The position numbers and the translations under genes were made by a program. Positions 2,057 through 58,253 of a stretch of DNA of 64,000 bases are shown here, in pieces (within the stretch, counting starts at the first letter, position 1; the number at the start of each line of letters is the position of its first letter). This DNA comes from Kordia sp. (GTDB lineage: Bacteria > Bacteroidota > Bacteroidia > Flavobacteriales > Flavobacteriaceae), in assembly GCF_022447245.1 (NCBI RefSeq), contig NZ_JAKVBC010000030.1, positions 1 through 64,000 of the forward strand. Reading direction: 5' to 3'. The notes beneath the pieces are model-generated. The model was not told the origin of the DNA and made no database searches. It saw only the letters and a list, made by a program, of their open reading frames with translations.

Positions 2057-2090
2057 AAATTAAAAACTTGAAGAAAACTACTAAACTTAA

Positions 2091-2125: not shown

Positions 2126-2212
2126 GTTGGTGCTTTTTTCAAACAAACGCAAAATTTGCATGTAACAAAATTCAGTACATTCACACAGATATTGTGAATC
2201 AATAAAAACACT

Positions 2213-3196: not shown

Positions 3197-3215
3197 TCAA
3201 ATTTTAGTTTACACA

Positions 3216-3563: not shown

Positions 3564-3569
3564 CGGCTT
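3544..3569 (+). terminator. Rho-independent terminator overlapping the DUF1801 stop codon
   Basis: A perfect 11-bp stem AAGCCGCTAGT/ACTAGCGGCTT closes a TTTT loop and is followed by a T-rich tail. The stop TAG at 3561-3563 is part of the hairpin. Confidence 0.85.
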
Positions 3570-3594
3570 TATATTTTTATTGAATCAGGTATAC

Positions 3595-3615
3595 TTTGAC
3601 TTCGCTCAATGTGAC
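3595..3615 (-). repeat. dispersed short repeat, family A copy 1
   Basis: On the minus strand this 21-base stretch matches the repeat at 20652-20679 with a few changes (core CGAGCGGAGTC there, TGAGCGAAGTC here). It lies between convergent genes (DUF1801 and kdsA). Related copies are at 23108-23132 and 25828-25866. Confidence 0.6.
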
Positions 3616-3646
3616 AATATCTAACGGTCTAACATTCTAAGAAAGT

Positions 3647-4465
3647 TTACAACGAATTAACCGTTTTACGAATCTTCACCAAATTGCTTAACAAATTTTC
3701 TAAATGATCTAAATGCAACATATTGGCACCATCACTTTTTGCATTTGCCGGATCAAAATGAGTTTCAATAAACAATCCGTCTACATTATTAACCACACCT
3801 GCGCGTGCAATAGTTTCAATCATTTCAGGTCTTCCACCAGTCACACCACTTGACTGATTTGGTTGTTGTAACGAATGTGTTACATCCAATACAGTTGGTG
3901 CAAACTGTTTCATGGTTGGAATACCGCGAAAATCCACAATCATATCTTGGTAACCAAACATAGTTCCACGATCTGTAATCCAAGCATTCTCATTTCCAGC
4001 ATCATGTACTTTTTTCACAGCGTGTTGCATACTTTCAGGACTCATAAATTGTCCTTTTTTCAAATTCACTACTTTTCCAGTTTTTGCCGCAGCAACTACC
4101 AAATCGGTCTGACGCACTAAAAAAGCGGGAATTTGCAACACATCTACATACGCTGCAGCTTTGGTAGCATCAGAAGCTTCGTGAATATCGGTAATTGTTG
4201 GTACGTCAAAGGTATCAGAAACCTTTTTAAGAATCGCTAAAGCCTTTTCGTCTCCAATACCAGTAAAACTATCAATACGACTACGATTGGCTTTCTTAAA
4301 GCTTCCTTTAAATACATATGGGATTTCTAATTTATCAGTAATGGCTACCACTTTTTCAGCAATGCGTAATGCCATATCTTCACTCTCAATAGCGCATGGA
4401 CCTGCTAATAAAAAGAAATTACCGGATGTAGTATGTTTGATCTTTGGAATAGAACTCAGTTGCAT
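3647..4465 (-). CDS. kdsA: 3-deoxy-8-phosphooctulonate synthase
   Basis: The enzyme condenses phosphoenolpyruvate with arabinose 5-phosphate to make KDO-8-phosphate, the first committed step toward the KDO of the LPS inner core, in the cytoplasm. At 272 residues it is of normal length. Diagnostic stretches are LAGPCAIES near the N-terminus, the substrate-binding KGSFKKANRSR, LKKGQFMSPESM, and SSGVTGGRPE and FIETHFDP toward the C-terminus. It is the last gene of a minus-strand run (DUF4836, ABC ATPase, permease, kdsA), but a TATCTTTG box in the 27-base gap before it suggests its own promoter. No other KDO genes are in the window. Confidence 0.96.
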   Translation of the reverse strand: MQLSSIPKIKHTTSGNFFLLAGPCAIESEDMALRIAEKVVAITDKLEIPYVFKGSFKKANRSRIDSFTGIGDEKALAILKKVSDTFDVPTITDIHEASDATKAAAYVDVLQIPAFLVRQTDLVVAAAKTGKVVNLKKGQFMSPESMQHAVKKVHDAGNENAWITDRGTMFGYQDMIVDFRGIPTMKQFAPTVLDVTHSLQQPNQSSGVTGGRPEMIETIARAGVVNNVDGLFIETHFDPANAKSDGANMLHLDHLENLLSNLVKIRKTVNSL

Positions 4466-4482
4466 AAATTGTAAATTTGCTG

Positions 4483-4490
4483 CAAAGATA
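4483..4490 (-). promoter_or_regulatory. putative -7 promoter box for kdsA
   Basis: On the minus strand the box reads TATCTTTG, a perfect match to the Bacteroidota -7 consensus TANNTTTG, 17 bases upstream of the kdsA ATG and squeezed between it and the stop of the permease gene. A clear -33 TTTG is not seen. Confidence 0.45.
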
Positions 4491-4492
4491 CA

Positions 4493-5686
4493 CTAAATTT
4501 CAGTAGTAAGTAAGCTTGTATTTACCGCAGTCATTTGTGCAATTTTTTTATTGGTATGCTTGGTGTAATACAAGGCAAGTACGACAAACAATACAATAGC
4601 AACAATAAAAACGTATATGAGTGAGAATGCGCTACTTTCAGTTTGCAAAATTGTCAAAAATGGTGCAAAAATAAACTTGCAAATCACCACAAGAATAAGT
4701 GCAATACAAATAGAAACGCCTAAAATTTTATAGGAAATCTTATGATATACACTAGCGATTTGCTTGCGCGAAAAACCTAAAAAGTATAACTGACAAATGG
4801 TTTGTTTATTCTTTAAAATAAGAAGGTTTATATTGGTAATAACCAAAGTGATAGATAATGCAGTGATTAAAATTCCAATCCCTAACACAATCGCTAATAC
4901 CAATTGTAAAAAGTAACTAATACGAGAACTTAATAACTCGCTTTGAAAATATTGATAATTGTTTTTTTCAAAAAAATCTAACAGTTTCGGGTCTGATGGA
5001 TTGGTAACTTCCATAATAACACGCGATATCTTAACCTCTATGTCAGGACTCAATACTTGATTGGTATATTCTAGAAATGATTTTGGAACCAATATCGTAT
5101 TAATTTTCTCGGAAGTAGCTAAAATATAAGCATCATACATCTTTCGTTTGGATGATCCTGTTAAGCTTAGTTTAATTGGAATTTGACTGATCACCTTTTG
5201 ATTAATTTGTGGTAAACCAGCGCCAGGAGCAAATCCGTAATTGTATAAGTCTATATAATTTTTGGGAATGATGACAGGAACTCTCCTTGATTCGGGAGAC
5301 CATTTCCAGTTTTCATCTTGAACATCGATAAATCGGTCAGAAACAGATTCCAAAAACATGTCGGTACTCATGCCGCCCATTCCAAGTAAAGAAACACTTC
5401 CTTGAACTCTGTAGGTGCCATTGGTAAAACTACCGACTTTTTTTACAAAATCTTGCTGTTTCAGTGTTTCAATTTCTTCTTCTGTAAAAGCATTATCTTT
5501 GCCTATGGCTTTCGATATAATAACCGTTTGATTGCCTAATAAATCGTTGGAAGAACCAAAAAGGGACTGTGTATCTACAAAAAGTTGAAAAACAACCAGC
5601 AAAATTCCCAATCCTAAACTAGAAGTCAGCGCAAAAAATAATAATTGCGAAAAGCGAATTTGTTTATGTAACAAATCACTAATCAC
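4493..5686 (-). CDS. ABC transporter permease, FtsX/MacB-like
   Basis: This is a 397-residue protein with the FtsX-like layout: one N-terminal membrane helix (LLFFALTSSLGLGILLVVF), a periplasmic domain of about 200 residues, and three C-terminal helices (for example FLQLVLAIVLGIGILITALS). It starts with GTG, whose last two bases begin the TGA stop of the ATPase gene upstream, a 4-base GTGA overlap that implies translational coupling. Together they probably form a mechanotransmission-type (type VII) ABC complex rather than a classical importer. The substrate cannot be told; the DUF4836 lipoprotein encoded just upstream may be a partner. Confidence 0.85.
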   Translation of the reverse strand: MISDLLHKQIRFSQLLFFALTSSLGLGILLVVFQLFVDTQSLFGSSNDLLGNQTVIISKAIGKDNAFTEEEIETLKQQDFVKKVGSFTNGTYRVQGSVSLLGMGGMSTDMFLESVSDRFIDVQDENWKWSPESRRVPVIIPKNYIDLYNYGFAPGAGLPQINQKVISQIPIKLSLTGSSKRKMYDAYILATSEKINTILVPKSFLEYTNQVLSPDIEVKISRVIMEVTNPSDPKLLDFFEKNNYQYFQSELLSSRISYFLQLVLAIVLGIGILITALSITLVITNINLLILKNKQTICQLYFLGFSRKQIASVYHKISYKILGVSICIALILVVICKFIFAPFLTILQTESSAFSLIYVFIVAIVLFVVLALYYTKHTNKKIAQMTAVNTSLLTTEI

Positions 5687-6315
5687 AACAGCAATGTTTT
5701 TGTATAGTCAATATTGTATGAATTTCCCAAACTAGCAATTACTAACGTAGCATTTCGTTGGCTAACTTCTTCTAAAATTAGTGATGTCGCATTGGCAATT
5801 TGCACATCGTCAATATGACTAAATGGTTCATCTAATAATAACAATTCAAACGGTTGACACAAAGCTCTTACAATAGCAACACGTTGTTGTTGACCGTAGG
5901 ATAAAGTTTCTGCTTGTTTGTGTGCCAATTGGTCTACGTCTAAGCGCTTCATATACGCTAAAATTTCCGCTTCTGTTTTATGAGCTGTCAATTGATTTTT
6001 TAACTGAATATTCTCCAGAGCAGTCAATTCAGGAAACAAGCGTAATCCTTGAAAAACGATGCTTATTTTTTTACGTCGAAGTTGTGTCCATTCAGGTTCA
6101 GTATATGATAATATATCTTTTCCATCAAACTGAATCGCACCTGTGAATTTATTATTTAAACCGTATAAAAAATTAAAGAATGAACTCTTTCCACTACCAG
6201 AAGCAGCTTTTACCAAATACTTTTGGCCAGACTTCAAACTAAAAACTTTACTCCAGCCCTCTGAAGAAGCTGGAGTAAAGTATGTTGGAATTATGGTTTG
6301 TATTTGTATTGTCAT
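5683..6315 (-). CDS. ABC transporter ATP-binding protein
   Basis: This 210-residue ABC ATPase is shorter than usual at the N-terminus. It has a Walker A AASGSGKSS (around residue 38), a Q-loop in SIVFQGLRLFPELTALENIQ, signature LSYGQQQR, Walker B ELLLLDEP, and a D-loop SHIDD. The H-loop histidine expected after the last strand appears replaced (LVIASLGNSYN), which would weaken hydrolysis if true. It overlaps the FtsX-like permease by 4 bases and is the obvious energy-coupling partner. The DUF4836 gene ends 25 bases upstream, suggesting one transcript. Confidence 0.88.
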   Translation of the reverse strand: MTIQIQTIIPTYFTPASSEGWSKVFSLKSGQKYLVKAASGSGKSSFFNFLYGLNNKFTGAIQFDGKDILSYTEPEWTQLRRKKISIVFQGLRLFPELTALENIQLKNQLTAHKTEAEILAYMKRLDVDQLAHKQAETLSYGQQQRVAIVRALCQPFELLLLDEPFSHIDDVQIANATSLILEEVSQRNATLVIASLGNSYNIDYTKTLLL

Positions 6316-6340
6316 GCTCTAAGAAATCTTGAGAGATTAT

Positions 6341-7993
6341 TTAATAGCGAGACATCATTTTAAGAGATTCTTTCATTGTAGCATCCATATATTCTATGGT
6401 ACGCTTCAACGAGCCTCCTTCACCTTTTACTTCATAATATGCTTCCATACCATCAGCATTCATCATCATGTGTGAGTCACCAAAGAATTCAGAATAGTTC
6501 ATGGTTTCAGTATTAGTGTTTATTTCATTTCCATCTGAAAAAGCATATGGATCAAAACTGTTAAACATTTCACTCATATTTGAGTAAAGGTTTTCTGAAG
6601 TGAAGACATATATTGAGTTGTCTAGATTAGCTTTGTATTTAAATTCTGAGAGATTTGTAGCTAATTTTCCATTATTATACACTTCATCTGCTTTAGTTAC
6701 ATCGTTTGTCACAAATAAAATATCATTTTTCAAGAGTGCAAAAACGTCTTTTGACAATTGGTAGTAATTTTTTCCTTTGGTGGATTTTGGTCTTTGCATC
6801 GTCATCATGATATTCATCAACTTTTCAAAGTTTTCAGTCTCTTTGATGGCAACGGCACCATAAACAAATGGAACTTTTTTGTCAAATACTTTATATCTGT
6901 AATCATCACTGTAGTAATCAATGATGCTATCTTTTACAGTTTTTCCTTCCGTAAAAGCAATCATCATTGAACCGTCAAAGACATTTGCAACATCAGCAAT
7001 GCTCATTCCCATAGCACTTTCCATTTGATTATTGGTATTTTCCAGGTTCATTTTTAATCCTTTTCTAAACAACTCAGGAATCAATTTATTCTCTTGTAAA
7101 CTTTCAATATGTTTGTATAATGCAGAAGTGTTCAATGATACTTTCACTACTGCTAAAGGATTTTCAGGTAGTACATTTAATAGATCAGCATTATATCCTT
7201 TAGCTGCCCATGTTTTGTATCCTGTTAAAGACTTCAAGTCGTCATTTAAACCTAAATTTGATTTCACTAAAACACGATCATCCTCAAAACTCCCATGATA
7301 AGAAAAATTATTATCTCCTAAATTAAGATTAACTCCATATATTGATAACAAAGAGTTTGCTAAATCTTTGACAGGACTGGAAGTTATGTGGATTCCCATA
7401 TCCATTCCAGCACCAATAAAATCTTTGAAATAGTCAGTTGCATAAATATTTTCTGAAGATGCTAATTTTGTCAAATCAATTAAATCTTGACCAGCAAATC
7501 TTGAACCTACCATAAACAGTGCAGTGGTTTCATTCCACCCAATTGCAGCATCTCTCTGAGTATATACTGTGAATGCATTATCTTTACCAACGTTTTCTTG
7601 CTTTTCTGCACGTGGCATATCTTTTAGCATCGGAGCGATCATTTTTTCGAAAGAAGAAGCATTTTGTATTGGTATGATAAGTGCCCCAGAAGTTGATCCA
7701 CCATCTGTTTTCATAAATCCAAACATCATATCATTACGGAAAGTTGTCTTGATATTTTCAGCATTTATTTGCTCAGCCATGAAGTCTTTTAATTTTTGAG
7801 GAGCAGATTGCGTGATCATTTTGTTAATATTCAAATTTTTGAAATCAACATCTTTACTTTTCTCATACAAAGATTCGAGATTTACATACATTACTCCGGT
7901 AGCATCTTTTGGTATGAAGGATGCTTCAGAAGGTTTTTTTCCACAACTTACAACTAAAATGGTAATTGCAAGTAGACATAAAATTTTTTTCAT
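6341..7993 (-). CDS. DUF4836 family lipoprotein
   Basis: This is a 550-residue lipoprotein with signal peptide and lipobox VVSC, then a conserved start (FIPKDATGVMYVNLESLYEK) typical of DUF4836 proteins of Bacteroidota. These are large periplasmic or outer-membrane-anchored proteins of unknown function. The remainder is a series of beta-alpha segments with no catalytic motif that I can name. It is the first gene of the minus-strand unit with the ABC transporter and has its own putative promoter (8050-8057). A role as the extracytoplasmic partner of that transporter is an inference from position. Confidence 0.82.
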   Translation of the reverse strand: MKKILCLLAITILVVSCGKKPSEASFIPKDATGVMYVNLESLYEKSKDVDFKNLNINKMITQSAPQKLKDFMAEQINAENIKTTFRNDMMFGFMKTDGGSTSGALIIPIQNASSFEKMIAPMLKDMPRAEKQENVGKDNAFTVYTQRDAAIGWNETTALFMVGSRFAGQDLIDLTKLASSENIYATDYFKDFIGAGMDMGIHITSSPVKDLANSLLSIYGVNLNLGDNNFSYHGSFEDDRVLVKSNLGLNDDLKSLTGYKTWAAKGYNADLLNVLPENPLAVVKVSLNTSALYKHIESLQENKLIPELFRKGLKMNLENTNNQMESAMGMSIADVANVFDGSMMIAFTEGKTVKDSIIDYYSDDYRYKVFDKKVPFVYGAVAIKETENFEKLMNIMMTMQRPKSTKGKNYYQLSKDVFALLKNDILFVTNDVTKADEVYNNGKLATNLSEFKYKANLDNSIYVFTSENLYSNMSEMFNSFDPYAFSDGNEINTNTETMNYSEFFGDSHMMMNADGMEAYYEVKGEGGSLKRTIEYMDATMKESLKMMSRY

Positions 7994-8049
7994 ATTGAAT
8001 GAAGTCTTAAAGGTTTATTATTTATTTATTATTAATCTGTGGAGGAATG

Positions 8050-8057
8050 CAAATTTA
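8050..8057 (-). promoter_or_regulatory. putative -7 promoter box for the DUF4836 gene
   Basis: On the minus strand the box reads TAAATTTG, a full TANNTTTG match, 56 bases before the ATG. The divergent promoter of typA is in the same intergenic region. No clear -33 element is recognised. Confidence 0.4.
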
Positions 8058-8287
8058 ATAATATCTAAATGTTTTGAAATAAAAACACTATAAAATATTG
8101 ATATTTACGTTTGCGACCTTATGTAAGACTGAAACCGCGCTAAAATGTTACAATTCTTGGAAATGTCATCAAAAAAACATTCAAAATCAAGTTAAGAATT
8201 GATCTGTAAAAATTAAGGCTAAAATGTTAATTAATAGTAATTTAACCTAAAAAACAAGTAAAATTCTTTTCTCTGGTAAATAAATAG

Positions 8288-8295
8288 TACATTTG
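8288..8295 (+). promoter_or_regulatory. putative -7 promoter box for typA
   Basis: TACATTTG matches TANNTTTG and lies 23 bases before the typA ATG, a typical spacing for Flavobacteriia. The rest of the 325-base gap between DUF4836 and typA is AT-rich, and I see nothing else in it. Confidence 0.5.
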
Positions 8296-8318
8296 CACGC
8301 TTAAAAAATAGAGGTAAA

Positions 8319-10118
8319 ATGACTTCAATTAAAAATATTGCAATAATTGCGCACGTAGACCACGGAAAAACAACATTGGTTGATAAAATAATGTATCATT
8401 GTCAGCTATTTCGTGAAAATGAGAATACAGGAGATTTAATCCTTGACAATAATGACTTAGAGCGTGAGCGTGGAATTACAATTACTTCAAAAAACGTATC
8501 CGTAAACTATAAAGGAACTAAAATCAATATCATTGATACACCTGGTCACGCCGATTTCGGTGGAGAAGTAGAACGTGTATTGAATATGGCTGATGGTGTT
8601 TTATTGTTAGTAGATGCATTTGAAGGTCCAATGCCACAAACACGTTTTGTGCTACAAAAAGCAATTGATTTAGGATTGAAGCCTTGTGTCGTTGTAAATA
8701 AAGTAGATAAGGAAAACTGTACGCCTGATGAAGTATATGAAAAGGTATTTGACTTAATGTTTGAATTAGGTGCAGAAGAATGGCAATTAGATTTCCCAGT
8801 GGTGTATGGTTCAGCTAAGCAAAACTGGATGTCAGATGACTGGCAAAAGCCAACAGATTCTATTGAGCCTCTATTAGATATGGTTATGGAACACATTCCA
8901 TCACCAGAATTTGAAACAGGAAGTACTCAAATGTTAATCACGTCATTGGATTATTCTTCTTTTACAGGACGAATTGCTATTGGACGTTTGCAACGAGGAA
9001 CATTAAAAGAAGGAATGCAAGTTTCTTTAGTAAAGCGTGATAAAACCATCATCAAATCAAAAATCAAAGAATTACACACTTTTGAAGGTTTAGGAAGAAA
9101 AAAGACTACTGAAATTCAGGTTGGAGATATTTGTGCAATTGTTGGTTTGGAAGGTTTTGAAATTGGAGATACGATCGCTGATTTAGAAAATCCAGAAGGG
9201 TTAAAAACGATTGCTATTGATGAACCAACGATGAGTATGTTGTTTACGATTAACGATTCTCCTTTCTTCGGAAAAGATGGAAAGTTTGTTACTTCACGTC
9301 ACATCAAAGATCGTTTAACAAAAGAATTAGAGAAAAATTTAGCCTTGCGTGTTCAAGAAACCGATAGTGCTGATAAGTTCTTAGTCTTCGGTCGTGGTGT
9401 CTTGCACTTATCTGTATTAATTGAAACGATGCGTAGAGAAGGATATGAGTTGCAAATTGGTCAGCCGCAAGTTATCATCAAAGAAATTGATGGTGTAAAA
9501 TGTGAGCCAATCGAAGAGCTAACAATTGATTTGCCAGAACACGTTTCTGGAAAAGCAGTAGAAATGGTAACGCTTCGTAAAGGAGACTTACTAAGTATGG
9601 AAGCTAAAGGTGATCGTATGATTTGCGAATTTATGATTCCATCAAGAGGAATTATTGGTTTGCGTAATCAATTACTAACGGCAACTGCTGGAGAAGCAAT
9701 CATGGCACATAGATTTAAAGAATACCAACCAGTTCGTGGTGGAATTCCAGAGCGTCAAAATGGATCGTTGGTATCTATGGAAAAAGGAACAGCAATTCCA
9801 TACTCAATTGACAAATTACAAGATCGTGGAAAATTCTTTGTAGATCCAGGAGAAGAAATCTATGAAGGTCAAGTAATTGGCGAAAATTCTCGTGGAGACG
9901 ACATGACTGTAAACGTTACAAAAACAAAAAAATTATCTAATGTACGTTCAGCTGGAGCAGATGACAAAGCTAAAATTGTTCCTGCCATCAAGTTCTCTCT
10001 AGAAGAAGCGTTAGAATACATTCAAAAAGATGAATATGTAGAAGTAACGCCAAATTATCTACGTCTGCGAAAAATATATCTAACGGAAGTAGAAAGAAAG
10101 CGTAACAAAACGATTTAA
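8319..10118 (+). CDS. typA: ribosome-associated translational GTPase TypA/BipA
   Basis: This is a 599-residue EF-G-like GTPase that binds the ribosome, helps 50S assembly and is important under stress and cold. The G1 loop is AHVDHGKTT (residues 10-18), switch I RERGITI, G3 DTPGHADFGGE, and G4 NKVDK. Beta-barrel domain II, the EF-G-like domains III and V and the TypA-specific C-terminal part (MIPSRGIIGLRNQLLTATAG, RKIYLTEVER) follow. Length and domain order are normal. It stands alone, with a promoter box 23 bases upstream and a strong terminator downstream. Confidence 0.97.
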   Translation: MTSIKNIAIIAHVDHGKTTLVDKIMYHCQLFRENENTGDLILDNNDLERERGITITSKNVSVNYKGTKINIIDTPGHADFGGEVERVLNMADGVLLLVDAFEGPMPQTRFVLQKAIDLGLKPCVVVNKVDKENCTPDEVYEKVFDLMFELGAEEWQLDFPVVYGSAKQNWMSDDWQKPTDSIEPLLDMVMEHIPSPEFETGSTQMLITSLDYSSFTGRIAIGRLQRGTLKEGMQVSLVKRDKTIIKSKIKELHTFEGLGRKKTTEIQVGDICAIVGLEGFEIGDTIADLENPEGLKTIAIDEPTMSMLFTINDSPFFGKDGKFVTSRHIKDRLTKELEKNLALRVQETDSADKFLVFGRGVLHLSVLIETMRREGYELQIGQPQVIIKEIDGVKCEPIEELTIDLPEHVSGKAVEMVTLRKGDLLSMEAKGDRMICEFMIPSRGIIGLRNQLLTATAGEAIMAHRFKEYQPVRGGIPERQNGSLVSMEKGTAIPYSIDKLQDRGKFFVDPGEEIYEGQVIGENSRGDDMTVNVTKTKKLSNVRSAGADDKAKIVPAIKFSLEEALEYIQKDEYVEVTPNYLRLRKIYLTEVERKRNKTI

Positions 10119-47115: not shown

Positions 47116-49430
<2,315 letters not shown>

Positions 49431-49454
49431 TACACATACATAATAAAAAAATTG

Positions 49455-49483
49455 AAAATGCCTCTTTTTGAGGTGTTTTTTTT
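49455..49483 (+). terminator. Rho-independent terminator after gyrB
   Basis: The stem AAAATGCCTC/GAGGTGTTTT has two wobble pairs and a TTTTT loop, with a T tract after it. Confidence 0.65.
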
Positions 49484-49508
49484 GCGTTAAGCAGTGTTTT
49501 TAATGTCA

Positions 49509-50245
49509 CTATTCTTTAATAAAACGAGAAATAGTAGCATCTCCGTCTTGATACGTCGTTTTTAAAAAGTAAACTCCAGGTTTTAAAAACGATAAGTCTA
49601 AGAAATTTTGTTGACGTGAAACTTCCGTTTCAAAGATACTAGCGCCTACTATTGAGAGTACATTAATTTTTTCGGTGGAATACCCTTTTAAGTCAAAATG
49701 TAATTTGTTTTTTACAGGATTTGGGTACATCAAAAATCGTTTCTTATCAAATTTCTTTAAAGGAAGGATACAATTTCCATGAACAGCAATGTTTCCTCTG
49801 GTGATGTGATTGTTAACGTCTTCCCATTATTGCCTTCATCCACAATTTCATAATTAAGTGTTCTTGAAGGTTCTGCGTTTCCCAAGATAATTGTAGGTGA
49901 ATATTGACTTTCAAGAAGGCAATTTGGAGAGCAATCTCCTAGCGTTACACTTGGTTGTTGAACTGTAAACGAAGTTGGAGAGATGGCAAGTGGAGGAGCT
50001 AAATCAAAGGCGCTGTTAATGCCGGCTACATTAGCAGTAAAATTATAATTACTAGCATCAGTTACTAAAAATCGAATTCCCGGAATGTACATGGGTAACG
50101 GTGCTTGAGGAACATTAATTGTAGTTCCTTCAATAACCATGTAGTGTAAGAACCACTTGTTTTCATTATTCAGTAAATCTTGTTGTGCAAACCCTAGGTG
50201 AAAGGCGAAAAATATGCAAATTAATAGTGCAATTTTTTATATCAT
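49509..50245 (-). pseudogene. broken T9SS type A sorting-domain protein gene
   Basis: From the ATG at 50245 the frame reads MI then TAA (50237-50239), then KIALLICIFFAFHLGFAQQD, a perfect signal peptide, and DLLNNENKWFLHYMVIEGTT. It runs through a passenger of about 130 residues (VPQAPLPMYIPGIRFLVTDA). It loses frame near 49760-49830; the other frame reads GNIAVHGNCILPLKKF and then the sorting domain FLMYPNPVKNKLHFDLKGYS to KE at 49509. Joined, about 245 residues. Two lesions, one at codon 3 and one indel. It is most likely inactive, unless the stop is read through. Confidence 0.78.
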
Positions 50246-50343
50246 TTTTTTATGGAAAAAAAGTAAAAAAAAGGGGCTATTTCCTGTAAATAGTCTTGGG
50301 TGATTTCATTATTTTTAGCTTAACAAACAAACCTACACTTAAA

Positions 50344-51390
50344 ATGAAAAAAAGAATTACATTACTTCTTGTGCTATGCTTTTCTGCATTGCAAGCCCAA
50401 GAACTAGAGAGTCTATTGTTAGCTGGTGACGATGCTAGTAAATTGACTGAAAACTACATGAATCCATTGATGAAAGGACTGTTGTATAGTATCAATGGAG
50501 GATGGTATACTACTGCAAAAACACATAAAAAATTTGGTTTTGATGTCACAATCTCAGCAAGCGCAAGTTTTGTGCCTACTTCAAGTCAAAGTTTCACATT
50601 TAATCCTGCAGATTATGAATTTTTATTAACTGCAAACGGAGAAACATCGATTCCTGCAGTAATGAGCGAAGATGGTACGCAAACTACGATGGATGTTCGA
50701 ATTCCTATTGATGGCACTAATACATTCAAAGTTGGAAGTTTTGAAATGCCTGGCGGAATAGCAGAAGACTTTCCAATCAACGCGGTTCCAGCACCCATGA
50801 TTCAAGTTGGTGTCGGATTGCCTTCTCGTACCGATATAAAATTGCGATATGTACCTAAATTGAGTTTTGATGACGATGTGGAAGCAGGTCTTTTTGGAAT
50901 AGGATTGCAACACGATATCACACAATATTTAGGCCCAATTGATAAACTGCCTTTGAATGTTTCGGTTTTAGCAGCCTATACACGTTTGAATGCAACCTAT
51001 GCTATCAATGACGACAGTTTTTCAGATAATGTGACTATCCGAAATGGAGAAGCTGATTTTACAATGAGTGCGTGGACAATTCAAGCTTTAGGTTCTTTAG
51101 ATTTTAAAATCATCACATTGTATGGTGGGTTTGGATACAATCAAGGAAAATCTGAGATCAATATCAAAGGTGATTACAATCTTACTTATGATGTGCAAGA
51201 TAGTAGTGGAAATGTAGTGTCAACCATAAATGAAACTATTTCAAATCCAGTGAATCTCGATTTTGAAGCCAATGGAGTCCGAACAACATTAGGAGCGCGA
51301 TTCAATTTGGGGCCTGTAAAAATCTTTGGAGACTACACTTTTCAGAAATTCAATACATTAAGCGCAGGACTCGCTGTAAGTATTCGATAA
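50344..51390 (+). CDS. DUF6588 family beta-barrel protein
   Basis: This protein of about 348 residues has a signal peptide (RITLLLVLCFSALQAQ) followed by LESLLLAGDDASKLTENYMN, PLMKGLLYSINGGWYTTAKT, a typical DUF6588 start, then amphipathic strands ending in ARFNLGPVKIFGDYTF and LAVSIR. The family is an outer-membrane barrel of unknown function. Start: ATG 50344 gives a proper signal peptide; the longer reading from 50296 adds 16 residues that do not belong. Confidence 0.82.
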   Translation: MKKRITLLLVLCFSALQAQELESLLLAGDDASKLTENYMNPLMKGLLYSINGGWYTTAKTHKKFGFDVTISASASFVPTSSQSFTFNPADYEFLLTANGETSIPAVMSEDGTQTTMDVRIPIDGTNTFKVGSFEMPGGIAEDFPINAVPAPMIQVGVGLPSRTDIKLRYVPKLSFDDDVEAGLFGIGLQHDITQYLGPIDKLPLNVSVLAAYTRLNATYAINDDSFSDNVTIRNGEADFTMSAWTIQALGSLDFKIITLYGGFGYNQGKSEINIKGDYNLTYDVQDSSGNVVSTINETISNPVNLDFEANGVRTTLGARFNLGPVKIFGDYTFQKFNTLSAGLAVSIR

Positions 51391-51489
51391 TAGTTTTGAT
51401 GTAAATAATTCAAAATATCATTGTTTTTCAATGTAAAAAATATGACCTTTGCAGCTTTAAAAACAATACATCAAAAAAATTATAAAAAT

Positions 51490-52416
51490 ATGAAAGTTAC
51501 AGTTGTAGGGGCAGGAGCAGTAGGCGCTAGTTGTGCAGAATATATTGCAATTAAAAATTTTGCTTCAGAAGTCGTTTTATTAGATATCAAAGAAGGATTT
51601 GCAGAAGGAAAAGCTATGGATTTAATGCAAACAGCTTCTTTAAATGGTTTTGATACAAAAATCACAGGAAGTACAAGCGACTATTCAAAAACAGCTGGTA
51701 GCGATATTTGTGTAATTACTTCTGGAATTCCACGTAAACCAGGAATGACTCGTGAAGAATTAATCGGAATCAACGCTGGAATTGTAAAATCAGTTTCTGC
51801 TAGCTTAATTGAGCATTCTCCAAATACAATTATCATTGTAGTAAGTAATCCAATGGATACAATGACATACCTAGTTCACAAAACAACTGGATTGCCAAAG
51901 AATAGAATCATCGGAATGGGTGGAGCTTTAGATAGCGCTCGTTTCAAGTACAGATTAGCGGAAGCATTAGAAGCGCCAATTTCTGATGTAGACGGAATGG
52001 TAATTGGTGGACACAGTGATAAAGGTATGGTTCCTTTAACTGCACATGCAACACGTAACAGTATCAAAGTATCTGAGTTCTTATCTGAAGAGCGTTTAAA
52101 CCAAGTAAAAGAAGATACGAAAGTTGGTGGAGCAACATTAACAAAATTATTAGGAACTTCTGCATGGTATGCGCCAGGAGCAGCAGTTTCAGGATTGGTT
52201 CAAGCAATTGCTTGTGATCAAAAGAAAATGTTCCCATGTTCAGCCTTACTTGATGGAGAATACGGATTAAATGATTTATGTATCGGAGTTCCTGTAATCT
52301 TAGGAAGTAACGGAATTGAAAACATCGTAGAAATTGACTTAAGTGATGCAGAAAAAGCACACTTAGCTGCAAGTGCAGAAGGTGTTAAGAAAACAAACGG
52401 ATTATTAGAATTATAA
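51490..52416 (+). CDS. mdh: malate dehydrogenase
   Basis: This is a 308-residue TCA-cycle enzyme, NAD-dependent, of the LDH-like (MDH group with GxGxxG) type: MKVTVVGAGAVGASCAEYIA, catalytic and substrate Arg in GIPRKPGMTREELIGINAGI, Asn of VSNPMDTMTYLV, catalytic His in VIGGHSDKGMVPLTAHATR. Start: ATG 51490 is right before the Rossmann strand. The longer reading (51421) adds 23 unrelated residues. A terminator follows at 52442. Confidence 0.96.
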   Translation: MKVTVVGAGAVGASCAEYIAIKNFASEVVLLDIKEGFAEGKAMDLMQTASLNGFDTKITGSTSDYSKTAGSDICVITSGIPRKPGMTREELIGINAGIVKSVSASLIEHSPNTIIIVVSNPMDTMTYLVHKTTGLPKNRIIGMGGALDSARFKYRLAEALEAPISDVDGMVIGGHSDKGMVPLTAHATRNSIKVSEFLSEERLNQVKEDTKVGGATLTKLLGTSAWYAPGAAVSGLVQAIACDQKKMFPCSALLDGEYGLNDLCIGVPVILGSNGIENIVEIDLSDAEKAHLAASAEGVKKTNGLLEL

Positions 52417-52441
52417 TCTCGTTATTTATAAAAAATACCCT

Positions 52442-52472
52442 AAAACCTCATGGCTAATTGCTTTGAGGTTTT
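52442..52472 (+). terminator. Rho-independent terminator after mdh
   Basis: The stem AAAACCTCA/TGAGGTTTT (52442-52450 with 52464-52472) runs into a T tract. Confidence 0.8.
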
Positions 52473-52551
52473 TTTTATGTCCATAAAATGTAACATATTT
52501 GTACAAATCGATACAAACCTTAATAGTTGTAAATAAACAAAAACTAAAAAC

Positions 52552-53205
52552 ATGAAAAAAATATTCTTATTAACAGCATTGGCATTTAGCGTAATGGTTT
52601 CTGCTCAGAAAAAAATAACAGAAGGAAAAATCATTTCTAAGCAAACAATATCTACAGATAATGAGCAAATGCAAGCGCAGTTGGCTATGATTGGTGATAT
52701 GGAAACAGTAACATTATTCAAAGGTCAAAGCTCAAGATCTGAATTAGATAATCCAATGTCAGGTAAAGTAACAACTGTTATCAACTCTGATACAAAAAAA
52801 ATGTTAGTGCTGATGAGTAATCCTGCATTAGGAAAAATGTATTCTGTGGAAGATATTTCTTTAAGTGAAGAGGATTTAAAAAGTGTAACAGTTACTAAAG
52901 GAAGCGAAACTAAAACGGTTTTAGGATATACGTGCCAGAAATATACAACAAGCATCACAAAAGACGGTGTAAAAGTAGATATGGTATTATATACCACAGA
53001 AGCAATTCCAGTAGTTTCTCAACAAACAACATCTTTAGGAGACAAAATCAAAGGATTTCCTTTATATGCTGAAGTGAAAATGAACCAAATGGGAATTGAC
53101 ATGACGGTAACTACGGTAGTAACGAAGATTGAGCCACAATCAGTTTCTTCTGATTTATTTGATACAACTCCACCAGAAGGATACAAAAACATGAAAGGTC
53201 AATAA
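52552..53205 (+). CDS. secreted protein, DUF4412/GLPGLI-like
   Basis: This is a 217-residue protein with a signal peptide (IFLLTALAFSVMVSAQ). The body is made of beta strands with a central conserved-looking Cys tract (TKTVLGYTCQKYTTSITKD) and VVSQQTTSLGDKIKGFPLYA, GIDMTVTTVVTKIEPQSVSS. Small periplasmic proteins with 'G(Y)xCxxY' patterns occur in the GLPGLI/DUF4412 groups of Bacteroidota. Function unknown. It is 80 bases before the SecD-like lipoprotein gene. Confidence 0.7.
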   Translation: MKKIFLLTALAFSVMVSAQKKITEGKIISKQTISTDNEQMQAQLAMIGDMETVTLFKGQSSRSELDNPMSGKVTTVINSDTKKMLVLMSNPALGKMYSVEDISLSEEDLKSVTVTKGSETKTVLGYTCQKYTTSITKDGVKVDMVLYTTEAIPVVSQQTTSLGDKIKGFPLYAEVKMNQMGIDMTVTTVVTKIEPQSVSSDLFDTTPPEGYKNMKGQ

Positions 53206-53285
53206 AATTTGACACTGCAAAATGTTAAAGGCTAGAATGCTCTATTGTAGCCTTTCTTTTTAAATTCAAAATTAAAAACGATTCC

Positions 53286-54257
53286 ATGTTTAAAAAATAT
53301 TCTATTTTCTCATGCTTACTTTTTTTGGTAGTGATAACTACGGCTTGTGAGACTATTGCTAAGCAGTCTATTTATAGTATTCAATTGCAAATTGAAGAAA
53401 CTAATTTAACACCAGAAGAAAAGACACGTGCTATCAGAAATATAGAAAGACGTTTAGTGTCGGTTGGTGCAGAGAATGTCGCTATTACTGAGGAGGAAGA
53501 TCAAAAAATAACAGTTGAATTTCAAGGAAAAATAAAACCTCAAAAACTACGTAAAAGCTTTACTTTTTCAGGAAAACTAGAGTTTTTTGAAGTGTGTAAA
53601 GAGAAAAATTTACTGTACAAATATCTACGTCAAATAGATGAAACTTTCGAAGAACAAGACAAGCTTCTAACGGAAGTAAAAAATGATAAAGTGGCTATTG
53701 ATAGTACTTTAGGTCTTTCTTTAAATACTATAAATGATGCTGTTTTTGCTACAGTTCCGAAAGAAAATAGAAAAAAAGTAGCTGAAAAATTGTTGCAAAA
53801 AGAACCATTTTCAATAAATGGGTTAGAAAAAAAAATAAAGTTTTTGTTAGGAAAAAGCGACCGTAAAGATCTATATGAATTATATGCTGTATATGTAACT
53901 GCTGAAAATAATGCATCGCTTGATGGGAGTTATGTAACAGATGCTGCTGTAGGATATGATCAACTTGGAAATTGGATCATAAATATACAGATGAATGCAG
54001 ATGGAAGTTATATTTGGGAACAATTGACTGAGGAGGTATATCAAAACAATGGTAATATTGCTGTTGCTGTAGATAATTATGTATACATGGCGCCTTCGGT
54101 TTTTACTGGGCCAATTTCGGGAGGAAAAACGCAGATCTCAGGAAATTTTACCGAAGAAGAAGCGATGGATTTGGCAAACGCATTTCGTGCAGGTTCCATT
54201 CCAAAAATGAAAATTTTGCAAGAAACTATTCTTAAGCGATATTTTCAGAAAAACTAA
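53286..54257 (+). CDS. lipoprotein consisting of a SecD periplasmic (P1) domain
   Basis: This is a 323-residue protein with lipobox (LLFLVVITTAC), then a region resembling the SecD P1 base (TRAIRNIERRLVSVGAENVA) and the P1 head with NGNIAVAVDNYVYMAPSVFT and SGGKTQISGNFTEEEAMDLA. Over residues about 255-306 it is 36 of 52 identical (by eye) to the corresponding part of the SecDF encoded 0.9 kb downstream. There are no SecD or SecF transmembrane segments; the protein ends LQETILKRYFQKN. So it is a lipid-anchored copy of the SecD periplasmic domain, most likely from a partial gene duplication. It may assist or compete with SecDF during export. Confidence 0.8.
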   Translation: MFKKYSIFSCLLFLVVITTACETIAKQSIYSIQLQIEETNLTPEEKTRAIRNIERRLVSVGAENVAITEEEDQKITVEFQGKIKPQKLRKSFTFSGKLEFFEVCKEKNLLYKYLRQIDETFEEQDKLLTEVKNDKVAIDSTLGLSLNTINDAVFATVPKENRKKVAEKLLQKEPFSINGLEKKIKFLLGKSDRKDLYELYAVYVTAENNASLDGSYVTDAAVGYDQLGNWIINIQMNADGSYIWEQLTEEVYQNNGNIAVAVDNYVYMAPSVFTGPISGGKTQISGNFTEEEAMDLANAFRAGSIPKMKILQETILKRYFQKN

Positions 54258-54341
54258 AAATTTCCCGTGTAGAGTGATATAATCCAATTACTTAAAACGA
54301 AATTAATTAAGAAAACACTACGTTAGTCTCCTCTTTATTTT

Positions 54342-54349
54342 TATATTTG
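54342..54349 (+). promoter_or_regulatory. putative -7 promoter box for the 54354 gene
   Basis: TATATTTG fits TANNTTTG but lies only 4 bases from the ATG at 54354. If used, the transcript would start at or just next to the start codon (leaderless). Confidence 0.35.
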
Positions 54350-54353
54350 GTGC

Positions 54354-54983
54354 ATGATTGCAAAAAAGTATTTTAGTGCTTTAATAATCTTCTTAGTCTT
54401 GCTTGGTTATTACCAAGAACAAGCACCTGTCCCTAATCAGGAAATTGAACTTCAATTTTCTCAGAATGAGGTAGTTTCTGAAGAAACGGAAGATGTAATT
54501 CTAGCAATCAAAGAACAATTAGAGTCTTTAGGTGTTACCAACATTCAAGTGCGTCAATTAGCAAATAATACACTTGCTATTGCGTATTATAGTGATGAAA
54601 ATGTTGCAGTGATTAAGGAATTCCTTATCGAAAAAGGATTTGCTTCAAAAAAGTTGCCGAAAACACCAACAGAAGAAACAGGAAGTCATGAAATTTTTGC
54701 CAATGCAGATAGCTACAAGTTAGATATCTACGAATTGCAAACGACTTCTGATTCATATCTAGGGACACACGGAAAATACATTTTAGACTTACAAAAAGAA
54801 TATGATAAATCTCCAACATCGAGTTCATTTGCGAATGCTAATTCCTTTATTACGGGAGATTTTGATGTAAACTCATTAGTGTTAACGTATAGCGAATCTG
54901 ATTATACGGTCACTTTTAAAGAAAATATTTCTTACGAAATTCCTGACGTTCGCGCAGGCCCTTTCACAATTATACTTTCTTAA
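54354..54983 (+). CDS. membrane-anchored protein with a possible SecD-like base fold
   Basis: This is a 209-residue protein with one N-terminal hydrophobic segment (YFSALIIFLVLLGYYQ), no lipobox Cys, then a region (VILAIKEQLESLGVTNIQVR, TLAIAYYSDENVAVIKEF) that resembles in outline the SecD P1 base strand-helix pattern. The second half is Thr/Ser-rich beta (SLVLTYSESDYTVTFKENIS). It sits between the SecD-like lipoprotein and secDF. Relation to SecD is a suspicion from pattern, not identity. Function unknown. Confidence 0.6.
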   Translation: MIAKKYFSALIIFLVLLGYYQEQAPVPNQEIELQFSQNEVVSEETEDVILAIKEQLESLGVTNIQVRQLANNTLAIAYYSDENVAVIKEFLIEKGFASKKLPKTPTEETGSHEIFANADSYKLDIYELQTTSDSYLGTHGKYILDLQKEYDKSPTSSSFANANSFITGDFDVNSLVLTYSESDYTVTFKENISYEIPDVRAGPFTIILS

Positions 54984-55160
54984 GTTTTAAAAATTATCAT
55001 TGATTTTACTTTTTAAAGTGTATCTCACCACAATGCATGCTAAAAACTATCAACATAGTCTATAAGCATGTCAAATAGTGTTTTTGATGATGAATCAAAG
55101 AGCACTTAAAATCACAATCAAATCACAAAAAAAATAATTGTCAAATGTGACGGTAAATGA

Positions 55161-55168
55161 TATATTTG
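55161..55168 (+). promoter_or_regulatory. putative -7 promoter box for secDF
   Basis: TATATTTG fits TANNTTTG, 34 bases before the ATG, with an ATTG at 55137-55140 about 20 bases upstream that could be a degenerate -33 element. Confidence 0.45.
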
Positions 55169-55202
55169 CCCGTTTAAAAAATTTGACCAAAAAAACTGAA
55201 TA

Positions 55203-58200
55203 ATGCAGAACAAAGGACTCGTAAAATTATTTGCGCTTTTATTCGGATTGGTAAGTATTTACCAATTATCATTCACATTTATTACGAATAAAATTGAAAC
55301 AGACGCAAAAGCCTACGCGGTAACACAAGTGCCAAAACCAGTAGATGGTGCTGACACAAAAGAAAATGCAGACGCTAGAAGTCTTGTAGAAGAAACGTAT
55401 TTAGATTCTATTGATAGGAATGAACCTATCAACTTCGGATTCGCAGAGTTTACATACAGTGAAGCGAAGGAAAAAGAATTAAACAAAGGTCTTGACCTTA
55501 AAGGAGGAATCAACGTAATTCTTCAAATTTCTGTAAGAGACATTCTTACTGGATTGGCTAATAACACAGAAAATGAAACATTCAAGAAAGCTTTAGATAG
55601 AGCAGACGAATTACAAAAAGATGCACAAGAAGATTATGTAGAATCTTTCTTTAGAGCTTTTGATGAATTAAAGCCTGCTGGTTTAAAATTGGCAGATCCA
55701 ACCCTTTTTTATACGGCATCTTTACAAGATGAATTAAAGAAAGAAACATTTAACACGCCTGATGATGTTGTTAAAAATGTACTTAGAAGAAAAATTGATC
55801 AATCTGTTGTATCTGCAAAAGAAGTATTAAACAAACGTATTGACCAATTTGGTGTAACACAGCCAAACATTCAACGTTTAGGAACTTCTGGACGTATCTT
55901 AATTGAATTACCAGGTGCGAAAGATGTAATTCGTATTGAAAAATTATTACAAACAACTGCAGAATTAGAGTTTTGGAAAACAAACAATAATAACTCTGAA
56001 TTGCTTTCATATTTAGTTACAGCTGATGCAAAGTTGAAAGAACTTCCTGAATTTGCAGTAGAAAAAGTAAAAGATACTACAGATACTGATTTAGATGAGT
56101 TAACGACTTCTACAGAGCAAGATTCAGCAGCTGTTGTGCAACCATTATTAGGTAAGTTAGCACTTTCTCCTGTTGGATCAAATACTGGTGGTGTTGTAGC
56201 TACAATAAAAGAAGAGGATAAAAGTGAAGTTGTAGCTTTATTAGATAATTCAATTTTAAAGCAAGTATTGCCTGCAAACTTACGTAATGTACGTTTTGCT
56301 TTTGGAAAAGAGGTAGATGCACAAGGAAGAGTAAAAATGTATGCTTTAAGTGGAAAGCGTAAAGGAAGACAAGCTACACCACAAATGAAAGGTGATGTGG
56401 TTGACGTTGCACAACAAAGCTATGGTAACGACATGAAGCCAGTTGTAACAATGAAAATGAATGGTATAGGAGCAAAGCAATGGGAGAAGTTAACTGGAGA
56501 AGTACATAAAGCAAATGGAAACATTGCTGTAGTTTTAGATAATATTGTATACTCTGCACCAAGTGTAACGACAGGAGCTATTACAGGAGGAAATACAGAA
56601 ATCTCTGGAAACTTTTCAATTGAAGAGGCAAAAGATTTAGCAAACGTATTAAGAGCTGGTAAATTACCTGCTAAAGCTGAAATTTTACAATCAGAAGTAG
56701 TTGGACCATCATTAGGTCAGGAAGCTATTAACAGTGGTTTAATGTCATTCTTAATTGCCTTGGGATTGGTGTTAGTTTGGATGGTATTCTACTATGGTAG
56801 AGCTGGACTTTTTGCTGATGTAGCTTTAGCGTTTAACATTCTATTAATCTTTGGTGTATTAGCAAACTTAGGAGCGGTGTTAACACTACCTGGTATTGCC
56901 GGTATCGTATTAACCATTGGTATGTCGGTGGATGCAAATGTACTTTTATTTGAAAGAGTTCGTGAAGAATTGGCAAAAGGAAAGTCATTACAAGAATCAA
57001 TCAATCATGCATTTAGCTGGAAAGGAGCTATGTCTTCTATCTTTGATGCCAACATTACAACTGGTTTAACTGCCTTGATCTTATTCTTATTCGGAACAGG
57101 ACCAATTAAAGGTTTTGCAACTACTTTATTAATCGGTATTGCTACTTCGTTATTTACTGCAATCTTTATCACAAGATTACTAATTGATTGGTATATTGGA
57201 AAAGGAAAGGAATTGGCATTCTCTACAGGAGCTACAAAGAACTTATTTAGAAACATGAATATTGAGTTTTTAAAGAAGCGTAAAGTTGCATATATCATTT
57301 CAGGAGTTATTATTGCTGTTGGTTTATGGTCAATTACCTTAGGAAGTGGATTGAATCAAGGAGTTGATTTTGTTGGAGGACGTTCGTACCAAGTACGTTT
57401 TGAGAAGACAGTAAGTCCACAAGATGTAAAAGCTTCATTACAAAATGTATTTGTTGATGGAGAAAATGCGGTTTCGTTAGAAGTAAAAACTTTTGGAGAA
57501 GATAATCAGTTAAAGATTACTACGAACTATAAAGTAAACGAGACGGGAACTGATATTGATGATGAAATCAAGAAGAAATTACACGAAGGTTTAGGAAGTT
57601 ACTTGCCATCAGGAATGAAGTATACGACGTTTGTTGATGGAGCAGAAAATAAGACAGTCGGTATTATGCAATCGATTAAGGTTGGGCCAACAATTGCCGA
57701 TGATATCAAGAAAGCGTCATTCTGGGCAGTATTAGGTTCGTTAGTAGTGGTATTCTTATATATCTTATTGCGATTCAGAAGATGGCAATTCTCTCTTGGA
57801 GCGGTTGCAGCAGTATTCCACGATGTGTTAATCGTATTAGGAATTTTCTCATTAGCATGGAAATACTTGCCATTTACAATGGAGATCAACCAAGCATTCA
57901 TTGCGGCAATTTTGACCGTAATTGGTTACTCGCTGAATGATACCGTGGTTGTATTTGATAGAATCCGTGAGTTTATGAACGAGCATTCTAACTGGAAGTT
58001 TAGCAAAGTGGTAAATGCGGCCTTGAATAGTACCTTAAGTAGAACGTTGAATACGTCGTTAACTACGTTAGTGGTATTATTGGCGATCTTTATTTTCGGT
58101 GGAGAATCTATTAGAGGATTTATGTTTGCCTTAATCGTTGGTGTAATTGTAGGTACCTACTCATCGATGTTTATTGCAACTCCAATTATGTATGATACTA

Positions 58201-58253
58201 TCAAAAAAGGAGATATCAACAAAGGGTTAGAAGAAGGTGAAGCGAAGGCTTAA
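55203..58253 (+). CDS. secDF: protein translocase SecDF, fused
   Basis: This is a 1016-residue fused SecD-SecF that uses the proton motive force to pull preproteins from SecYEG on the periplasmic side. N-terminal helix (LFALLFGLVSIYQLSF), SecD motif DLKGGINVILQISV, P1 domain with a large insertion, head NGNIAVVLDNIVYSAPSVTT, then five helices with LTIGMSVDANVLLFERVREE. The SecF half follows: LNQGVDFVGGRSYQVRFEKT, and VIGYSLNDTVVVFDRIREFM with its proton-relay Asp/Arg. Domain order and length are normal for Bacteroidota. Terminator at 58281. Confidence 0.97.
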   Translation: MQNKGLVKLFALLFGLVSIYQLSFTFITNKIETDAKAYAVTQVPKPVDGADTKENADARSLVEETYLDSIDRNEPINFGFAEFTYSEAKEKELNKGLDLKGGINVILQISVRDILTGLANNTENETFKKALDRADELQKDAQEDYVESFFRAFDELKPAGLKLADPTLFYTASLQDELKKETFNTPDDVVKNVLRRKIDQSVVSAKEVLNKRIDQFGVTQPNIQRLGTSGRILIELPGAKDVIRIEKLLQTTAELEFWKTNNNNSELLSYLVTADAKLKELPEFAVEKVKDTTDTDLDELTTSTEQDSAAVVQPLLGKLALSPVGSNTGGVVATIKEEDKSEVVALLDNSILKQVLPANLRNVRFAFGKEVDAQGRVKMYALSGKRKGRQATPQMKGDVVDVAQQSYGNDMKPVVTMKMNGIGAKQWEKLTGEVHKANGNIAVVLDNIVYSAPSVTTGAITGGNTEISGNFSIEEAKDLANVLRAGKLPAKAEILQSEVVGPSLGQEAINSGLMSFLIALGLVLVWMVFYYGRAGLFADVALAFNILLIFGVLANLGAVLTLPGIAGIVLTIGMSVDANVLLFERVREELAKGKSLQESINHAFSWKGAMSSIFDANITTGLTALILFLFGTGPIKGFATTLLIGIATSLFTAIFITRLLIDWYIGKGKELAFSTGATKNLFRNMNIEFLKKRKVAYIISGVIIAVGLWSITLGSGLNQGVDFVGGRSYQVRFEKTVSPQDVKASLQNVFVDGENAVSLEVKTFGEDNQLKITTNYKVNETGTDIDDEIKKKLHEGLGSYLPSGMKYTTFVDGAENKTVGIMQSIKVGPTIADDIKKASFWAVLGSLVVVFLYILLRFRRWQFSLGAVAAVFHDVLIVLGIFSLAWKYLPFTMEINQAFIAAILTVIGYSLNDTVVVFDRIREFMNEHSNWKFSKVVNAALNSTLSRTLNTSLTTLVVLLAIFIFGGESIRGFMFALIVGVIVGTYSSMFIATPIMYDTIKKGDINKGLEEGEAKA

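Follow-up and report, generated by a model that had tools for sequence, protein, structure and literature searches.

What does a stand-alone copy of the SecD P1 domain do upstream of the gene for SecDF, and what is the role of the small gene that lies between the two? This question is raised by a stretch of 64,000 nucleotides from Kordia sp. (Flavobacteriaceae; assembly GCF_022447245.1, contig NZ_JAKVBC010000030.1, positions 1 to 64,000 of the forward strand), which is called the window below. Two open reading frames (ORFs), ORF1 and ORF2, precede secDF in this window (Table 1). An initial annotation had put the weight on ORF1, which was seen as a lipid-anchored P1 domain and as a candidate new accessory module of the Sec machinery. 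The analysis described here moved the weight to ORF2, which very probably is an arrest peptide that monitors SecDF.

Relationship of ORF2 and ORF1 to the SecD P1 domain

ORF2 was compared with ORF1 and SecDF by means of profiles. The comparisons build on 80 named loci, the best 80 of 292, which were found by patterns that included VRAGP or an N-terminal motif. The alignment of ORF2 (A3) comprises 79 of 81 ORF2s, with L120 and L133 omitted. A search of ORF2 against Pfam gave no match at E<=1. In contrast, an hhalign comparison of the ORF2 profile with the profile of 20 ORF1s gave an E-value of 4.6e-18, and the match extended over 205 of 209 columns. This bears out the remark in the initial annotation that ORF2 has the outline of a P1 base, and all controls were far lower. 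ORF2 without its signal segment had a score of 105.5 against ORF1, compared to at most 22.7 for 200 column shuffles, and the base alone had a score of 64.0 (200 column shuffles, at most 17.2). The similarity was not confined to the base: the C-terminal half of ORF2 scored 55.2 against the ORF1 head (shuffles at most 21.3), the last 40 residues still scored 39.9 (at most 19.3), and residues 120-209 scored 50.0 against the P1 domain of SecDF (at most 23.4). Further controls were taken from the same loci, namely six unrelated families, and their scores did not exceed 17.6.

A tree of 76 rows gave the same picture. ORF1 and ORF2 were together opposed to SecDF with a support of 100, and the ORF2s formed one clade. 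This clade joined 9 of the 20 ORF1s (support 96), and thus the ORF1s did not form a single clade. Profile homology identifies ORF2 as a shortened paralogue of SecD P1 and as a sister of ORF1.

ORF1 had been described as the base and head of P1 without membrane helices, and this description was confirmed. Pfam SecDF_P1_head matched with an E-value of 4.5e-21 (75.3 bits; cut-off 27), while the N-terminal base, SecD_1st, was found at 0.0068 and with 16.3 bits, i.e., under its cut-off of 27. In a BLASTP alignment of 333 columns, ORF1 and the neighbouring SecDF were 31% identical (E 1e-32), and the 36 identities in 52 residues that had been counted by eye were exact on recount. The membrane domain SecD_SecF_C was found by Pfam in SecDF, and no match at E<=1 was obtained in ORF1 or ORF2. 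In addition, ORF1 stayed below the curated cut-offs for SecD and SecDF (TIGR01129, 90.1 bits of 244.4; NF009585, 140.4 of 1037). By these matches ORF1 is a P1 paralogue and not a SecD.

The AlphaFold (AF2) model of ORF1 had a mean predicted local distance difference test (pLDDT) value of 84.8 and a predicted template modelling (pTM) score of 0.79. The structure search against SecD P1 that had been proposed for both proteins was positive for this model, and negative for that of ORF2, which is treated below. Ten PDB entries matched ORF1 at E<=0.001, namely nine SecDF chains and one chain of the holo-translocon (5mg3_D). The top match was 3aqo (1.4e-13), a fragment of 222 residues of Thermus SecDF, which presumably is the P1 domain in isolation. 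ORF1 has the base and head fold in common with it, and differs from SecDF in the absence of the membrane domain and in its predicted nature as a lipoprotein; ORF2 would consist of the base and a cut head only.

The N-terminus of ORF1 is MFKKYSIFSCLLFLVVITTAC. A regular expression detected a lipobox-like cysteine in 19 of the 20 ORF1s, including that of the window. A relative in L098 (Aquimarina mytili, 3967-4917) has no such cysteine (VVSSASGQQ) and is perhaps a soluble periplasmic P1. The motifs K-(D/E)2 and Q-A-(D/E)2 are a surface-export signal of lipoproteins (PMC5080379), and neither was seen by eye after the lipobox cysteine in the ORF1 stretches. ORF1 most likely sits on a membrane and faces the periplasm, and it is possible that it acts there as an accessory on emerging preproteins. 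The ratio of nonsynonymous to synonymous substitutions (dN/dS) was estimated for six pairs. It was 0.145-0.371 for ORF1 and 0.040-0.170 for SecDF, and it was higher for ORF1 in every pair; these values are rough, as the frames were opened at the first ATG that follows a stop codon, and dS was >1 in four of the six pairs. They indicate that ORF1 is under purifying selection, which is looser than for SecDF.

A recent duplication of secDF in Kordia was also considered and was rejected. In a tree of the 20 ORF1s with 35 SecDF P1 domains, 15 of which were picked at random from loci without ORF1, the two groups were split by a branch with a support of 100. The ORF1s grouped broadly by genus.

The distribution of both genes was also analyzed. 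Among 199 genomes that were sampled evenly across the family, 81 had ORF2 in a profile search built on alignments from the 80 named loci. A separate search detected no ORF2 in 39 genomes from the order's other families. In the named loci secDF was the next recognised gene after ORF2 in all 80 cases, and mdh was found upstream in all but L091 (79). ORF1 was much rarer. It was found in 19 of the 80 ORF2 loci and, in the first 99 genomes, in 13 of the 32 with ORF2 and in 0 of the 67 without it. Counts of ORF1 from the family-wide profile search are lower bounds. In all 13 genomes, which include that of the window, it lies beside secDF, and in one of them (G046) it is in two frames. In a further genome (G121) ORF1 is in three pieces and adjoins an intact ORF2. 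A strict dependence of ORF1 on ORF2 was dropped, because G246 has ORF1 beside secDF without ORF2.

ORF2 is thus the conserved core, and ORF1 is an optional part. Two results would have refuted the initial annotation, namely a model unlike SecD P1 and the absence of the gene beside secDF in all relatives, and neither was obtained. ORF1 lies upstream of secDF as stated; "directly upstream" does not hold, because ORF2 lies between. The proposal of a new accessory module is partly supported: the P1 match and the secDF neighbourhood hold, but the proposal is founded on ORF1, the optional part. The conserved core is a probable regulator, very probably of a class that has already been described.

The C-terminal motif of ORF2 and known arrest peptides

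The C-terminus of ORF2 in the window is ISYEIPDVRAGPFTIILS, in which VRAGP is followed by six residues. RAGP was present in all named loci (80/80), a count that is biased by the search pattern and was set aside as evidence. Therefore, ORF2s found via whole-protein similarity were used. RAGP was located 2-10 residues before the stop codon in 30/30 and 26/26 of these. The 26 further rows comprise 20 from the low-scoring part of the survey matches (not strictly the 20 lowest) and six from eight chosen regions; one of them (G049) overlaps with the set of 30, so that 55 distinct genomes are represented.

RAGP was found in 0 of 20 ORF1s and in 0 of 80 SecDFs. At its position SecDF has a loop of the head that reads PGVTTGA (27/80) or PGVTTGP (15/80), together 42/80, and ORF1s have, e.g., PGVSSGP (4/20) or PGVTAGP (1/20). 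A separate MAFFT alignment likewise placed PEVRAGP over PGVTAGP of an ORF1 and PGVTTGA of a SecDF, both from locus L087. A change from PGVTTGP to PEVRAGP would comprise two exchanges inside RAGP and one before it. SecD contains another RAG, within the LANVLRAGKLP that closes the head. An origin of RAGP from this site was set aside, because the profile and the MAFFT alignments favour the PGVTTGP/PGVTTGA loop; the alternative alignment was not forced.

Residues 197-203 were 97% conserved in the 79 rows. In contrast, the preceding region was poorly conserved, and the commonest residue at positions 129-185 accounted for 0.46-0.52 of the rows. Its length was nearly invariant: Gly202 followed the last base strand at a distance of 72-76 residues in the 79 rows and of 70-75 in the 26 further rows. 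Such a near-constant tether would suit a ruler across the ribosome tunnel and the translocon.

RAGP is the end of the SecM arrest sequence and one of the query motifs of the RQH family (PMC10987492). That family was searched for with four criteria, i.e., a small upstream ORF without known function before secA, secDF or yidC, an N-terminal signal or transmembrane segment, a C-terminal RAPP-like motif, and a spacer of more than 30 residues (PMC10987492). All four features were found in ORF2. The best hydropathy over 12 residues in the N-terminal part had a minimum of 2.31 and a median of 2.86 (81 rows), and the spacer between N28 and Gly202 was 167-179 residues long in the 79 rows. Fujiwara et al. 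(2024) described a group of arrest peptides upstream of secDF, uDF_RQH_Flavobacteriales, a representative of which stalls B. subtilis ribosomes in vitro and those of E. coli less (PMC10987492). Like ORF2, this group lies before secDF in Flavobacteriales and has an N-terminal localisation signal and a C-terminal RAPP-like motif. ORF2 very probably belongs to it. The toeprinted RQH peptides stall with the third residue of the motif in the P-site (PMC10987492), and therefore Gly202 is predicted to occupy it in ORF2.

SecM of E. coli and VemP of Vibrio are further peptides with which ORF2 can be compared. SecM regulates secA, and we know of no SecD-like domain in it. The arrest sequence of VemP differs from that of ORF2 and, to our knowledge, VemP has no P1 ancestry. 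With SecM, ORF2 shares the C-terminal RAGP, the signal sequence and the position before a sec gene, which is secA in the case of SecM; the SecM motif is FxxxxWIxxxxGIRAGP (PMC10987492), of which ORF2 has RAGP and not the FxxxxWI element. VemP, which is encoded upstream of secD2-secF2, is a secretion monitor of SecDF, as proposed here for ORF2, and the release of its arrest has been proposed to need pulling by the head of SecD P1 (PMC11470409). Fujiwara et al. favour a repeated independent emergence of RAPP-like peptides over one origin, and the main text of their paper contains no mention of a SecD ancestry of such peptides (PMC10987492). Neither a stand-alone SecD P1 lipoprotein nor a SecD-derived arrest peptide was seen in the titles and abstracts covered, which are part of the literature, and the descent of ORF2 from SecD P1 appears to be unreported.

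DNA elements and the proposed control of secDF

A -7 promoter box, TAnnTTTG, was found before ORF2. The arrangement TAnnTTTG-N4-ATG was present in 57 of 80 loci, and the box at any short spacing in 62. In Flavobacterium this box spans -12 to -5 (PMC9723704, PMC6847099), and, therefore, a box that ends 4 nt from the ATG would place +1 on the A of the ORF2 start codon. The ORF2 mRNA would thus often be leaderless, a type that comprises just 5.5% of the mapped mRNAs in F. psychrophilum (PMC9723704).

An inverted repeat is located before secDF. The counts given here are based on patterns; they supersede a first count of hairpins, which used stem selection and was biased. The comparison set consisted of 20 of the 28 family genomes without ORF2. 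The 3' arm (TTGAC at most 40 nt from the ATG) was present in 67 of 81 ORF2 loci and in 2 of 20 loci without ORF2, and both arms were present in 55/81 compared to 1/20 (Fisher test, 2e-7). The arms are thus associated with ORF2, and in G246, which has ORF1 only, the 3' arm is missing. The reverse was observed for the TAnnTTTG box before secDF, which was found in 20/20 loci without ORF2 and in 41/81 with it. The distance from the end of the 3' arm to the secDF ATG was 14-23 nt (67 loci), and slid versions of the arms paired at 0.52 at most. In 16 Aquimarina-type loci the box was never found between the arms (0/16), while both arms were still present in 13/16, and several of these loci (L104, L107, L122, L137) have stems of 10 pairs. 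An extra stem just 3' of RAGP was seen in the Aquimarina-type group only. A short transcript that starts at the promoter of secDF itself would be without the 5' arm, whereas a long ORF2-secDF transcript would carry both. In F. johnsoniae, initiation is lowered by secondary structure in the region in which the 3' arm ends (PMC6847099).

Taken together, these results suggest the following model, to which we assign a probability of about 0.75. A duplicated SecD P1 domain would have been the ancestor of ORF1 and ORF2. ORF1 would have retained the complete P1 and turned into a lipoprotein, while in ORF2 the signal segment and the base would have been kept, the second head half deleted, and the head loop PGVttGP changed to PEVRAGP just before the stop codon. 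ORF2 would be translated from an mRNA that often is leaderless, and Sec would export the product. The ribosome would stall with Gly202 in the P-site unless translocation driven by SecDF exerts a pull on the chain. In the stalled state about 74 residues would separate the last base strand from the peptidyl-transferase centre, which is about the length of the ribosome tunnel plus the translocon, and, therefore, the base would just have arrived in the periplasm. A lasting stall would raise the expression of secDF from the ORF2-secDF transcript, in the leader of which a hairpin can arise ahead of the start of secDF. The homology, the truncation, the conservation of the motif, the nearly constant tether, the order of the genes and the link between the arms and ORF2 are results of computation, and the leaderless start, the stall, its release by SecDF, the effect on secDF and any contribution of ORF1 are inferred.

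The model can be extended, albeit speculatively and as an unlikely addition, to a sensor that was made from its own target. The base of ORF2 would be recognised through P1-P1 contacts by SecDF or ORF1, ORF1 would tune release as a stand-in or decoy P1, and RAGP would stem from the head loop of SecD.

If the descent is true, ORF2 would be a RAPP-like arrest peptide that can be traced to its parent protein, SecD P1, with the conserved head loop of the parent at the position of the motif, and the question of how an arrest peptide can arise out of its target would become directly testable. Bacteroidota are naturally without Shine-Dalgarno sequences (PMC6847099), and ORF2 would offer a system in this phylum for how arrest can control a downstream gene without the unmasking of a Shine-Dalgarno site. 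In addition, ORF1, the lipoprotein P1, is flagged as a possible partner.

Several observations speak against parts of this model. The base of ORF2 alone matched the P1 of SecDF weakly (E 0.0018), the single sequences of ORF2 and ORF1 reached only 2e-4 over the N-terminal 77 columns, and a single-sequence comparison of ORF2 with SecDF gave nothing significant. Alignment A3 was gathered in part with the VRAGP pattern. The tree of 76 rows has long branches, and the non-monophyly of ORF1 is uncertain. The structural model of ORF2 was poor (pLDDT 57.8, with low confidence at 130-197). It orders the signal helix (3-19) and the base (28-96, with a strand at 121-127), and a PDB search returned ferredoxin-like and other folds; none of them reached E<=0.001, and SecDF was absent from the top 50. 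Because of this low confidence and the missing SecDF match, the homology is argued from profiles and not from the fold. With respect to the regulation, a promoter-like box of its own was kept before secDF in the 41 ORF2 loci mentioned above, and thus a dependence of secDF on ORF2 is not needed. By the simple pattern, one or both arms are missing in 26 of 81 ORF2 loci. The pairing of the arms was 0.900, compared to a mean of 0.857 and a maximum of 0.878 in 500 shuffles, which is a modest excess that is uncontrolled for relatedness. The 5' arm is located 63-230 nt past the RAGP codon (55 loci), too far for direct melting by the stalled ribosome, and no common long-range fold between RAGP and secDF was found in four groups with 48 loci. 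Lastly, 61 of the 80 ORF2 loci gave no ORF1.

Other explanations were weighed against the same data. The terminal PEVRAGP might be a conserved docking or processing peptide instead of an arrest sequence, since for ORF2 itself the sequence alone is at hand, and most of the RAPP-like proteins of E. coli and B. subtilis that were tested arrested inefficiently in vitro (PMC10987492). However, RAGP in 55 of 55 genomes, shortly before the stop codon, ahead of secDF and separated by a long spacer from a preceding hydrophobic segment, together with the stalling by the Flavobacteriales secDF group (PMC10987492), makes this explanation very improbable. The inverted repeat could be a DNA operator over the secDF promoter and not an RNA hairpin: its arms flank the -7 box, the 5' arm abuts a -33-like TTG, and the pairing excess over shuffles is small. 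This is rather unlikely in view of the Aquimarina-type loci, in which both arms occur without the box and several stems have 10 pairs, and because the 3' arm follows ORF2 while all ORF2-less loci have the promoter box.

For ORF1, the opposite emphasis is a tentative possibility, which we doubt to some extent: a lipid-anchored periplasmic P1 that binds preproteins beside SecDF would be the functional point of the locus, and ORF2 would be a separate regulator of shared ancestry. The complete P1 fold, the purifying selection and the lipobox-like cysteine in 19/20 would fit, as would G246 with its ORF1 next to secDF, and a periplasm-facing position is plausible because the surface-export signal was not seen. 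However, ORF1 is missing from most ORF2 loci, is broken in G046 and G121 beside an intact ORF2, and has no SecDF membrane domain. ORF1 could also be a decaying relic of the duplication behind ORF2 that has no function at present. Its patchy presence, the two broken copies and a dN/dS above that of SecDF in each of the six pairs point in this direction; the low dN/dS values, though obtained with high dS in four pairs, and intact frames with a lipobox across distant genera make a relic quite improbable. The model with ORF2 as the arrest sensor is thus retained, with ORF1 as an optional component, the help of which in release would be conjectural.

Organization of the locus

The coordinates of all features are summarized in Table 1. 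The mdh gene of the window was identified by eye from its translation. The eight named loci that match the window best all come from Kordia.

Table 1. Features of the secDF locus in the window
Feature	Position	Strand	Description
mdh, GLPGLI-like gene, ORF1, ORF2, secDF	gene order in window	+ for ORF1, ORF2, secDF	
GLPGLI/DUF4412-like secreted protein	52552-53205		between mdh and ORF1
ORF1, stand-alone SecD P1 (base and head) with lipoprotein-type signal	53286..54257	+	323 residues; by Pfam, BLASTP and model
Candidate lipidated Cys21 of ORF1	codon 53346-53348	+	lipobox-like
Predicted -7 promoter box of ORF2, TATATTTG	54342..54349	+	4 nt before the ORF2 start codon
ORF2, predicted signal segment, P1 base, ~74-residue tether and C-terminal arrest motif	54354..54983	+	by profile homology to ORF1
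VRAGP codons (residues 199-203), predicted site of arrest (Gly202 as P-site residue)	54948..54962	+	aligned with ORF1 V272-P276
TTG of -33-like element	55138-55140	+	overlaps the 5' arm
5' arm GTCAAAT of inverted repeat before secDF	55140..55146	+	one-base overlap with -33-like TTG
Predicted -7 box of secDF's own promoter, TATATTTG	55161..55168	+	within the hairpin loop
3' arm ATTTGAC	55181..55187	+	ends 15 nt before the secDF ATG
secDF	55203..58253	+	1016 aa; NCBIfam NF009585, 1324.5 bits (cut-off 1037)

The neighbourhood gyrB - DUF6588 - mdh - (GLPGLI) - (ORF1) - ORF2 - secDF is strongly conserved (window 47406-58253; loci L068-L147). Among the 80 loci, relatives of DUF6588 (PF20230) were counted in 64, gyrB in 59, mdh in 79, and the GLPGLI-like gene in 19; as the stretches extend about 5 kb to each side, the outer neighbours are undercounted. 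In two loci without ORF2 (L161 and L165) the GLPGLI-like gene lies immediately 5' of secDF, and the ORF1 profile matched it weakly there (0.011 and 0.041), possibly by chance. In L134 (Lacinutrix neustonica, 1052-8797) ORF2 is intact, while secDF, mdh and DUF6588 are each in several frames, possibly due to sequencing error. No TAnnTTTG box was seen by eye 5' of ORF1 in the window. A terminator-like inverted repeat with a run of T behind it (AAAGGCTA...TAGCCTTTCTTTTT) is located at 53227-53261, just 5' of ORF1.

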